This document shows, one piece after another, positions 37,658 to 45,518 of a DNA stretch of 64,000 nucleotides (the stretch's first letter is position 1; every line of letters starts with the position of its first letter). Origin of the DNA: an uncultured Mucilaginibacter sp. (GTDB lineage Bacteria; Bacteroidota; Bacteroidia; Sphingobacteriales; Sphingobacteriaceae); NCBI GenBank assembly GCA_903866915.1, contig CAIPPO010000087.1, positions 1 through 64,000 on the forward strand, written 5' to 3'. Position numbers and translations under genes: made by a program. The notes under the pieces are model-generated. The model was not told the DNA's origin, did no database searches, and saw only the letters and a program-made list of their open reading frames with translations.

Positions 37658-38839
37658 TCAGTTCAATTTTTGGTAAGTTTTCCACCAAAGATCGGGCATT
37701 TCACCGGCGACTGCCGTCTTATAGTCGTCATAGCGGCAAGGCACCAGGTGGAAGCGCTCATTAGCAGAACCCGTTGTTGGATAGGGCACCTGCATCCACC
37801 ACCGATCTGACTTTTTGCTTTTCACAAAGATAACCTCATGATCTTCGTGTTTCAAACTTGTTTTGTAAATGAGGTATTGCGATTTAGGGTTAAGCGGAAA
37901 ATCTTTTTTCCGATTATAAAACCCATCAATAAAATACCAAATCATTTGTGCCAGCAGGGTAGCGGTTTGACCGTTGCTGTCAAAAGCGGGGTTAAATTCG
38001 TAAAAACCTATAGAACTCAACTTATCGTTAAAACCGGCATACCGGGCAATCTGGCAGGCCTCCTCGCCATAAAAACCGTTGGGGGAAGCATTGGCATTGC
38101 CCGCTGCATCTGATGACCTGACGGCACCAATATCAAAACTAACCATGTTCGCATTGCGGATAACAGGCTCTGCTACGGCTACTGTACCACTAACTTCACC
38201 AAGCCGATGGACATCAAAATAGAGTTTATCCATCACCCGCAAACTTTGCTGACTTGTAAAATAGGTTTGAAAGCCCAGATTGCTGTAATTGAACAGGTAA
38301 TTAGGCTCGTGTAAAAAAATCTTGTTCAGATAGCTAAGGGATGTGGTTTCAATTGTATCGATAAATGCGTCGTCATCCAGGTCAAAGCGCGGATCGACGA
38401 TAACCAGATCAACTTTTAGTTCCAATTCTTCATATGCAAGGTACTGTGCATAAGTCAAATCCTGCCCTCCGCCAATAATTACCGGTAAAATGTCTTTGCG
38501 GATCAGCTCATTAACAACTGTTTTGACAGCAAAGTAAGTATCCGTAACAACCGCTCCCTGTTTGATGTTACCAAGGTCGACGATGCGGGTTTTGTAGCTG
38601 CCTTCAAACAAAGCGTACAAACGCTCGCGCACATAATCGGGGCCCAGCGCACAACCCGGATTGTTGATAGCGTTTCGGTCGTCCTGTACACCAATGATTG
38701 CGATGTCTGCCTTCTCATCCAGATCAGGAAACGTTGTAGTAAACAGCCTGATCCGCTCGCCCAGTTGGCTGTTGAAATACCCGGTTTTCGGGGTTATCGC
38801 ATCCAGGTTTATCGGCGTAAAAAAGTCGGATAAAGACAT
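37658..38839 (-). CDS. Arginase/formiminoglutamase-fold protein with degenerate metal site
   Basis: 393 residues with the ureohydrolase fold: IIGVQDDRNAINNPGCALGPDYVRE at the start, IIGGGQDLTYAQY, DLVIVDPRFDLDDD, and NMVSFDIGAVRSSDA. In true arginases and formiminoglutamases these read GG(G/D)H, DAHxD and DxD. Here the His of the first becomes Gln, the His of the second Arg, and the last Asp of the third Gly, so about half of the Mn ligands are missing. The C-terminal ~70 residues (DRWWMQVPYPT) are an extension. Usually annotated as formimidoylglutamase in Bacteroidota; a non-enzymatic role seems likely. Confidence 0.75.
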   Translation of the reverse strand: MSLSDFFTPINLDAITPKTGYFNSQLGERIRLFTTTFPDLDEKADIAIIGVQDDRNAINNPGCALGPDYVRERLYALFEGSYKTRIVDLGNIKQGAVVTDTYFAVKTVVNELIRKDILPVIIGGGQDLTYAQYLAYEELELKVDLVIVDPRFDLDDDAFIDTIETTSLSYLNKIFLHEPNYLFNYSNLGFQTYFTSQQSLRVMDKLYFDVHRLGEVSGTVAVAEPVIRNANMVSFDIGAVRSSDAAGNANASPNGFYGEEACQIARYAGFNDKLSSIGFYEFNPAFDSNGQTATLLAQMIWYFIDGFYNRKKDFPLNPKSQYLIYKTSLKHEDHEVIFVKSKKSDRWWMQVPYPTTGSANERFHLVPCRYDDYKTAVAGEMPDLWWKTYQKLN

Positions 38840-40799: not shown

Positions 40800-42092
40800 A
40801 TGGACCAATATTTTATCATCGATTTCGACAGCACTTTTACGCAGGTAGAGGCTCTGGACGAACTTGCGCGTATTTCGCTGCGGAAACATCCGGATCGCGA
40901 AAAGATCTATAAACAGATCGAAGATTATACTAATGCCGCTATGGAGGGGAAACTTTCCTTCAGCGAGAGTCTGGCTGCCAGGGTAAAATTACTGGAGGCA
41001 AACCGCGACCACCTGAAGCAATTAATTACGCACCTTAAGAAAAAGGTATCCACCTCATTTTCGAGGAACAGCAATTTTTTCAAGCAGCATCAGGATAACG
41101 TATATATCGTATCAGGCGGATTTAAAGAATTTATTACACCTGTAGTTACCGATTACTTCATTAAAAAAGAAAATATTTACGCCAATACTTTTGTATTCGA
41201 CGAGCAAGACAATATTATCGGCTACGACCGTGAGAACCCGCTTTCGCAAGAAGGTGGCAAGGTTAAGCTGTTAAAACAGATGGGCTTGCAGGGCGAAATT
41301 TTTGGTATTGGTGATGGCTATTCTGATTTCCAGTTAAAGGAATCAGGAATGATTAAAAAATTCTTTGCTTTTACTGAAAATATCGAACGGAAATCGGTAG
41401 CAGAAAAAGCCGATCATGTTACGCCAAGTTTTGACGAGTTCCTTTACATTAACAAACTGCCACGCGCTATATCTTACCCTAAAAATCGCATCAAATGCCT
41501 TGTTGTGGGTCAGGTAGACGAGGAGGCAATTGAACAGATGCGCAAGGAAGGTTACGATATCAGGCATAAAGAAAGCATAGAAGAGAAATACCTGGAGGAA
41601 GCCGGCGTACTTTTGTGCGACGAAGACAACCAACCCACACCTGAACATTTAGAAAATGCAGGGCGCCTAAAAGTTATCGGTATCTTAGGTCGCGTATCGG
41701 GACGGCGGTTATCAGAAACTGCCTGCGAAAACGGGATTATCATTTTCGATGACCCGAAATATAATCCACGCAACGTCGACTTCATTCCAAAACGGATAAT
41801 TGGGTTTATGAATGAGGGTAAAACGCATATGAGCTGTAACTTTCCCGATCTGCAGCCCCCGCGTAATGATAGCGCTCACCGGATCATCCATATTCATACC
41901 AATGTTCCCGGTATACTTGCACAAATTAATGAGGTTTTTGCCCGCCATAACATCAATATTGTTGGTGAATTCCTGGTTACCAATGCGCAGATCGGCTATG
42001 TAATTACCGACGTACATGCCGGCTATAGCAACCGCGTACTGAACGAGTTAAAAGCGATCGATCATACAATCAAATTTAGGTTGTTGTATTAA
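40800..42092 (+). CDS. HAD phosphoserine-phosphatase-like protein fused to NAD-domain-deleted SerA remnant and ACT domain
   Basis: 430 residues. Residues 1-215 are an HAD-IB phosphatase like SerB: DFDST at 8-12 (nucleophile Asp), VSGGF near 105, and GIGDGYSDFQ near 173. Residues ~225-330 resemble the outer half of the SerA substrate-binding domain (IKCLVVGQVDEEAIEQM, LKVIGILG), but the Rossmann NAD-binding domain with its GxGxxG is absent. Residues ~345-430 match the end of SerA and its ACT domain (HRIIHIHTNVPGILAQINEVF). Many Bacteroidota encode ~630-residue SerB-SerA fusions; this looks like an in-frame loss of the dehydrogenase. Probably a serine-responsive phosphatase (inference). Confidence 0.8.
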   Translation: MDQYFIIDFDSTFTQVEALDELARISLRKHPDREKIYKQIEDYTNAAMEGKLSFSESLAARVKLLEANRDHLKQLITHLKKKVSTSFSRNSNFFKQHQDNVYIVSGGFKEFITPVVTDYFIKKENIYANTFVFDEQDNIIGYDRENPLSQEGGKVKLLKQMGLQGEIFGIGDGYSDFQLKESGMIKKFFAFTENIERKSVAEKADHVTPSFDEFLYINKLPRAISYPKNRIKCLVVGQVDEEAIEQMRKEGYDIRHKESIEEKYLEEAGVLLCDEDNQPTPEHLENAGRLKVIGILGRVSGRRLSETACENGIIIFDDPKYNPRNVDFIPKRIIGFMNEGKTHMSCNFPDLQPPRNDSAHRIIHIHTNVPGILAQINEVFARHNINIVGEFLVTNAQIGYVITDVHAGYSNRVLNELKAIDHTIKFRLLY

Positions 42093-44450: not shown

Positions 44451-45518
44451 ATGACTGAGACGCTCGACATCAAAATCACTAAAACCAATCATTCGCGTTT
44501 AGCGCAAACTGATTTTAATAACCTGCCCTTCGGAAAAATATTTACCGACCACATGTTGCTGGCCGATTATGCTGATGGCGAATGGAAAAACTTCGAGATA
44601 GTCCCTTATGGCGAGATTGGTTTGAGTCCTGCAATTTCTGCTTTGCACTATGGGCAGGCATTTTTTGAAGGCATCAAAGCCTACAAACATGCCGACGGTA
44701 AGGTATCCGTATTCAGACCTGACAAAAATGCGATCCGTTTTAACAAATCTGCCGAACGTCTATGCATGCCGGCATTACCTGAAGAAATATTTGTTCAAAG
44801 CATAGCAGCGCTGGTTGATTTGGAGCGCGACTGGATACCTTCGGCACCGAACCATTCGCTTTACATCCGGCCGGCAATGTTCGCTACCGATCCGTTTTTA
44901 GGTGTAAACCCTTCGGCCACCTATAAATATATGGTGTTAACCTGCCCTGTAGGACCCTACTTTTCAAAAACATTACGGGTTAAGATCGAAGAAAAATACA
45001 CCCGTGCTGCCGAAGGGGGTTTTGGCTACGCTAAAGCTGCCGGCAATTATGGCGGCGCTATGCTTCCCGGCAAAAAAGCTGTAGAAGAAGGTTTTGACCA
45101 ATTGATCTGGACCGACGGAAAAGAACATCAATTTATTGAAGAAATGGGTGCAGCCAACGTAATGTTTGTACTTGACGGCAAACTGATCACGCCTTCGCTG
45201 GAGCTGCAAACCATACTCGACGGCGTAACCCGCGACACGGTAATTGCGCTGGCTAACGATTGGGGCTTCCCGGTTGAACAACGCCGTATATCAGTTGCTG
45301 AGATTATAGCTGGTGCAAAGAGCGGTGCCTTATCAGATGCCTTCGGAGCTGGCACTGCTGCTACTATTGCACCGGTAGGTTCAATAAGCTACCACGGAGA
45401 GGAATATTTCCTGAGTGACCCCAAAACACGTGAATTTTCGCAAAAGGTACTGCACACGCTGGATGGCATTCGCTACGGTAGATCTGAAGATCCGCACGGT
45501 TGGAATTATATTGTTTGA
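44451..45518 (+). CDS. ilvE: Branched-chain-amino-acid aminotransferase
   Basis: PLP enzyme that interconverts Leu, Ile and Val with their 2-keto acids. 355 residues, type II (eukaryote-like) BCAT. Characteristic stretches: ALHYGQAFFEGIKAYKH, VFRPDKNAIRFNKSAERLCMP, YIRPAMFATDPFLGVNPS, GFGYAKAAGNYGGAML with the PLP-binding Lys, FIEEMGAANVMFVL, and SDAFGAGTAATIAPVGSISY. Length and motifs are complete. Its stop is 36 bp from the end of the convergent phosphoesterase gene. Confidence 0.95.
   Translation: MTETLDIKITKTNHSRLAQTDFNNLPFGKIFTDHMLLADYADGEWKNFEIVPYGEIGLSPAISALHYGQAFFEGIKAYKHADGKVSVFRPDKNAIRFNKSAERLCMPALPEEIFVQSIAALVDLERDWIPSAPNHSLYIRPAMFATDPFLGVNPSATYKYMVLTCPVGPYFSKTLRVKIEEKYTRAAEGGFGYAKAAGNYGGAMLPGKKAVEEGFDQLIWTDGKEHQFIEEMGAANVMFVLDGKLITPSLELQTILDGVTRDTVIALANDWGFPVEQRRISVAEIIAGAKSGALSDAFGAGTAATIAPVGSISYHGEEYFLSDPKTREFSQKVLHTLDGIRYGRSEDPHGWNYIV

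Follow-up and report, generated by a model that had tools for sequence, protein, structure and literature searches.

A phosphoserine phosphatase of Sphingobacteriaceae that probably kept the ACT domain of a fused SerA after loss of the NAD-binding domain

Serine synthesis is normally restrained at SerA. The window analysed here, a stretch of 64,000 nucleotides from an uncultured Mucilaginibacter sp., encodes a protein, P0001, in which a phosphatase is joined to parts of SerA. Which step of the pathway does such a protein serve, and what could its serine-binding domain control? We consider it probable that P0001 is the SerB of its cell, derived from a SerB-SerA fusion which lost the NAD-binding domain, and that its ACT domain has been retained to sense serine. 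In the light of the sequences it is plausible, with the likelihood moderately on its side, that feedback acts on the last step of serine synthesis and no longer on the first.

P0001 (430 amino acids) is encoded by a complete open reading frame at 40800-42092 on the forward strand, starting with ATG. The reverse strand of this interval holds no open frame of comparable kind. The gene stands alone: the upstream neighbour, on the same strand, ends 243 bases away, and the downstream neighbour lies 662 bases off on the opposite strand. The Rfam scan of the window matched no RNA element, and serine genes were not seen among the scanned neighbours. The following parts are distinguished.

40800..41453, + strand: phosphoserine phosphatase domain (HAD-IB), residues 1-218 (Pfam, NCBIfam, PDB sequences, invariant residues)
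41454..41483, + strand: junction to the SerA start (LPRAISYPKN region), residues 219-228 (family alignment)
41484..41774, + strand: remnant of the SerA substrate-binding domain, residues 229-325 (Pfam, alignment, structure prediction)
41775..41873, + strand: SerA hinge helix and linker to ACT, residues 326-358 (alignment, full fusions)
41874..42089, + strand: SerA-type ACT domain, residues 359-430 (PF22629, serine ligands)
42090..42092, + strand: stop codon

The N-terminal half contains all four HAD motifs (DxDxT, S, K, GDGxxD). Pfam reports a HAD match at residues 6-179 (E 1.3e-8), and a search of PDB sequences relates residues 5-210 to phosphoserine phosphatase. D8, D10, S105, K154, D172 and D176 are invariant in 69 of 69 family homologues and in all 80 named loci, so the catalytic residues described in a preliminary description of the locus are confirmed. 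E17, M48, F54 and R61 are invariant in the same 69 homologues and, apart from one M to I exchange, in the 80 loci. With respect to the M. jannaschii phosphatase (PSP), D8, D10, E17, M48 and F54 correspond to D11, D13, E20, M43 and F49, and R61, S105, K154, D172 and D176 to R56, S99, K144, D167 and D171. We take E20, M43, F49 and R56 of the M. jannaschii enzyme to be the residues which recognise phosphoserine.

P0001 scores 58.6 bits against TIGR01488, above the cut-off of 45, and 61.3 bits against the SerB equivalog TIGR00338, which fails the curated cut-off of 144.15; the substrate is therefore assigned from the residues. Since intact SerB-SerA fusions likewise score under this cut-off, TIGR00338 does not cover the branch to which P0001 belongs. 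The HAD-IB phosphatases of ~430 residues in this family are probably the SerB enzymes of their genomes, overlooked by the SerB model. In a structure search with the predicted P0001, the phosphatase 3kd3 was found with a TM-score of 0.89 by target length.

The C-terminal half derives from SerA. Within the family, 8 of the 10 junction columns (219-228) reach at least 97% invariance, and this stretch resembles the 'LSYPK' N-terminus of standalone SerA. The Pfam 2-Hacid_dh match is partial (residues 234-326, E 1.3e-3, under the cut-off). PF22629 (ACT) matches residues 363-425 with 44.4 bits against a cut-off of 27 (E 1.9e-11), and the Pfam search of P0001 gave no match to PF02826, the NAD-binding domain. 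Furthermore, residues 329-430 resemble the C-terminus of E. coli-type SerA in the PDB sequence search. To locate the missing part, P0001 was aligned with SerA of E. coli, standalone SerA of Bacteroidota and the full fusions. Residues ~225-325 align along E. coli SerA 1-111, residue 325 being equivalent to SerA 111, and the alignment resumes at residue 326, equivalent to SerA 305. The deletion, which the preliminary description proposed to map against the ~630-residue fusions, thus covers SerA ~112-304, that is, the NAD-binding domain, and falls between positions 41774 and 41775. P0001 retains the ACT domain as well as the helix with which the chain returns to the substrate-binding domain. A partial SerA substrate-binding domain followed by ACT, with no NAD-binding domain, is hence what Pfam, PDB sequences and alignment agree on, as originally described. 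E. coli SerA and the M. jannaschii phosphatase served as rulers, and their residue numbers match the published ones.

SerA R240, E269 and H292 were deleted together with the NAD-binding domain. R60 is replaced in all forms without this domain, and S61 in nearly all of them. With both the domain and R60/S61 gone, P0001 is expected to have no dehydrogenase activity. In E. coli SerA, the side chains binding serine are His344, Asn346 and Asn364 (PMC6300728). Their counterparts in P0001 (H366, N368 and N386, equivalent to H344, N346 and N364) are invariant in the 69 family members, the 80 named loci and all tabulated fusions. The predicted structure of P0001 has a mean pLDDT of 91.6. The substrate-binding remnant is predicted as an alpha/beta domain (pLDDT mostly ~90-95) and not as an unrelated domain, an outcome which would have spoken against a deletion of the SerA core. 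The best structural matches are phosphoserine phosphatases and ACT-bearing SerA; the latter superpose with a large full-length rmsd, as is expected of domains that sit differently.

How widespread is this architecture? A homologue occurs in 300 of the 301 sampled genomes of the order (17 genera, one family), with ~430 residues wherever a length is listed, and all 69 aligned family sequences are 427-446 residues long. Named carriers include Pedobacter, Sphingobacterium, Mucilaginibacter, Olivibacter and Parapedobacter. G100 is the only sampled family genome without a homologue; it gave no SerB-family match at E <= 1e-6, and a short SerA is present. Being near-universal in the order, the architecture of P0001 is neither chance nor local damage. 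The preliminary description had named a common length with a different ancestry as evidence against a deletion. The length is indeed shared family-wide, whereas the ancestry is as proposed. In other Bacteroidota families, the phylum and class samples contain SerB-SerA frames of ~600-690 residues (~630). P0001 aligns to these full fusions in two pieces, 1-327 and 327-430, separated by ~190 extra residues of the fusion. We found no papers on the SerB-SerA fusion in the open library searched.

The NAD-binding domain is absent in three groups: the P0001 family, family f56 (L100 with 424 residues, and L126-L128) and a Polaribacter-labelled MAG (L215 2489-3778, 430 residues). In addition, fusions with a degenerate dehydrogenase exist. 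The f53 fusions (L107, L132, L131, L129 and L130) still have the NAD-binding domain, with R240, G241 and H292 replaced, and f79 (L136) and f64 (L102) are fusions with a likewise degenerate dehydrogenase domain. Having lost catalytic or substrate residues of the dehydrogenase, the f53, f79 and f64 proteins are probable pseudoenzymes with phosphatase and ACT intact. In f54/g181 (L133, L134, L135), phosphatase and SerA are split into adjacent genes, and the ACT domain of this SerA has the motif LLIH(D/E)N(I/V)SG, against HIHxNxPG in the fusions.

In a tree built from phosphatase and ACT columns, the P0001 family is a single clade (100/99) that also includes the copies from Niabella and Chitinophaga; f56 sits in another, well-supported fusion clade (100/99). 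L215 pairs with the intact fusion L054 (99/90), to which it is 83% identical over the shared columns. This appears to be a recent excision and the closest natural before-and-after pair. Uniting the Sphingobacteriaceae and f56 forms in one clade was disfavoured (AU p = 0.02; the branches are long), and one origin of all degenerate forms was rejected (p = 3e-5). On this tree the NAD-binding domain was thus lost on three or more occasions, of which the one in f56 is the least secure. The Chitinophagaceae copies within the Sphingobacteriaceae clade (L206, L214 and L240 from Niabella, L218 and L225 from Chitinophaga) suggest two horizontal transfers as the simplest reading. The claim of an in-frame, selected deletion of the SerA core is sustained by the alignment, the ~630-residue relatives, the family-wide fixation and the independent repeats.

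The retained parts are not equally conserved. Columns with 80% conservation or more in the intact fusions served as the reference, and each group was scored by its agreement with them. Across the six degenerate lineages the score is 0.86-1.00 for the phosphatase and 0.88-0.94 for ACT (ACT 0.82 in the Niabella and Chitinophaga copies), and only 0.28-0.62 for the substrate-binding remnant. Where the NAD-binding domain is present, it scores 0.22 in f79, 0.47 in f53 and 0.90 in f64, the last indicating early decay. ACT thus scores high as the remnant decays, which argues that it was retained together with the phosphatase and not as a passenger of the dehydrogenase. Mean identity within the family is 78% for HAD, 73% for ACT and 53% for the remnant, the fastest-evolving part. 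The SerA parts were originally reported as well kept on both sides of the junction; this is true of the ACT end but not of the substrate-binding part, which is ~27% identical to intact fusions. Values of dN/dS by domain (~0.06 or less throughout, from 3-34 usable pairs with synonymous sites near saturation) lend weak support to constraint.

If P0001 is the SerB of its cell, which protein catalyses the first step? P0001 is the only SerB-type HAD found in its own genome; the other matches are frames of 679-860 residues, which are probably P-type ATPases. No second match to P0001 appeared in this genome, hence no further SerA-type ACT was seen. The separate SerA which was looked for does exist: SerC adjoins a 316-residue SerA without ACT, both on contig C209. 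Each of the 25 family genomes tested has this short SerA, as does G100 (62-100% identity), and it is also present in f56, in most of f53, and in f64, f79 and the Polaribacter MAG. All six degenerate lineages include one or more genomes with it. The intact-fusion families f8, f9, f10 and f44 lack it, and in their listed genomes the fusion is the nearest SerA. Family f4 and several further intact-fusion families carry both. There are two exceptions: a close short SerA was not found in G859 (f53, degenerate fusion, 98% complete genome), and none was found in the Anseongella MAG G889 at E <= 1e-40. The Niabella and Chitinophaga genomes tested have a different SerA of 414-419 residues. Where a second SerA is available, the fused dehydrogenase can apparently be lost. 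Several intact-fusion families have the short SerA as well, so that the link is permissive and the sample falls short of statistical proof. As far as the GapMind publication (PMC7311316) lists them, the only remaining gap of a Pedobacter strain is lysine DapE. In that part of the publication, the Pedobacter SerB step seems to be filled, with the gene not named.

From these observations we propose the following working. The ancestor was a bifunctional SerB-SerA fusion, whose NAD-binding domain was lost, presumably while a separate SerA without ACT performed the first step. Two P0001 subunits may pair via their ACT domains, and L-serine would bind at the ACT-ACT interface through H366, N368 and N386. 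The substrate-binding remnant and ACT could then move as one body relative to the phosphatase. This serine-driven movement would lower phosphatase activity, inhibition being the most likely sign. When serine sits between two ACT domains of E. coli SerA, the unit of substrate-binding domain and ACT rotates with respect to the NAD-binding domain (PMC6300728). Mycobacterial SerB enzymes are inhibited by L-serine, with their ACT domains implicated (PMC10564941); control at the SerB step thus has a precedent of different build. The repeated losses suggest that, in the groups concerned, serine regulates its formation at the final step. Several points count against this reading. The remnant, the supposed transmitter of the signal, evolves fastest in P0001. 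Folding or dimerisation could be the reason why the serine ligands are conserved. SerB is not usually regarded as the controlling step of the pathway. The TIGR00338 score under the cut-off and the lack of a homologue in G100 also weigh against it.

It is conceivable, and in our judgement unlikely, that remnant and ACT dimerise and stabilise the phosphatase as a scaffold, without serine regulation. A remnant which diverges fast and is still folded in the prediction would fit such a role, and the ACT domains of E. coli SerA do make a dimer interface (PMC6300728). However, the three serine-ligand side chains are invariant over six degenerate lineages and 80 named loci, and a scaffold has no need for exactly such a polar pocket. 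Moreover, a phosphatase of the same type is a separate gene beside SerA in f54/g181 and can therefore exist alone. P0001 could also act in trans, as a phosphatase and regulatory subunit whose remnant and ACT join the ACT-less SerA (or SerC) and relay the serine signal. The sensorless SerA of its own genome, and the presence of the short SerA in most of the tested genomes without the NAD-binding domain, agree with this idea. We nevertheless hold it to be quite improbable: the remnant that would join the partner is the least conserved part of P0001, the genes lie on different contigs from SerA/SerC, and Niabella and Chitinophaga combine the shortened gene with a different SerA of 414-419 residues.

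Two further explanations deny the C-terminal half a function or an origin by deletion. That it is a non-functional leftover, whose removal is merely still to come, is very improbable. The remnant has diverged and the SerA substrate residues are gone, as a leftover would predict, but a homologue persists in 300 of 301 genomes from 17 genera, ACT shows 73% mean identity within the family and is conserved in every independent case, and dN/dS is ~0.06 or less (few pairs). Scarcely credible is a history without deletion, in which the phosphatase was joined to a SerA fragment already devoid of the NAD-binding domain, or in which the gene is an assembly or frameshift artefact. We found no point in its support; identical architecture recurs in many complete and draft genomes, the tree pairs the form from the Polaribacter-labelled MAG with an intact fusion to which it is 83% identical, and intermediates with degenerate NAD-binding domains exist.

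Deletion from a fusion, with the ACT domain kept for serine, therefore remains our preferred reading, and comparison with known systems shows where P0001 stands. The Bacteroidota SerB-SerA fusions (~630 residues) are direct relatives with the same order of parts, junction and serine ligands; they retain the NAD-binding domain with R240, E269 and H292, which P0001 lacks. E. coli-type (type 2) SerA (NF008759; PDB 1psd, 1yba) is the source of remnant, hinge and ACT and shares the serine site; compared with it, P0001 has neither the NAD-binding domain nor R60/S61. Mycobacterial SerB2 is, like P0001, a phosphoserine phosphatase joined to ACT domains. However, its two ACT domains are N-terminal, whereas the phosphatase of P0001 begins at residue 3 and a single SerA-derived ACT follows C-terminally behind the remnant. 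Phosphatases without ACT (M. jannaschii PSP, human PSPH, Francisella 3kd3) have the catalytic domain and residues of P0001 and no regulatory half. The Dunaliella glycerol-3-phosphate dehydrogenase (PDB 6iuy) bears a phosphatase-like stretch in a dehydrogenase chain and matches weakly in sequence and fold; its dehydrogenase is of a different kind and intact, which makes it an architectural parallel only.

An ACT-controlled phosphoserine phosphatase is already known; new are the different build and the unusual, repeated route. Throughout a family of common bacteria, with Pedobacter, Sphingobacterium and Mucilaginibacter among them, the presumed sensor sits on SerB and not on the SerC-adjacent SerA. 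Whether a more general route is at work here, we regard as evenly balanced: a fusion enzyme loses one catalytic core, keeps the sensor of its partner, and the sensor then controls the remaining enzyme, repeatedly so in Bacteroidota. For this phylum one would count three or more excisions besides three degenerate intermediates, and serine feedback would have shifted away from the first step to the last. Intact fusions, degenerate dehydrogenases and excised domains form a replicated series, which offers a test of how a ready-made allosteric domain gains a new enzyme.

Some neighbouring genes in the window may also be mentioned. An Arginase-superfamily protein is encoded at 37658-38839 on the reverse strand, with a weak match to HutG (formimidoylglutamase; 91.8 bits, cut-off 229). 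Downstream of the P0001 gene, 43294-44244 encodes a Tryptophan 2,3-dioxygenase-like protein (TIGR03036, 95 bits, under the cut-off of 390.7), and 44451-45518 a branched-chain aminotransferase which scores above its profile cut-off.
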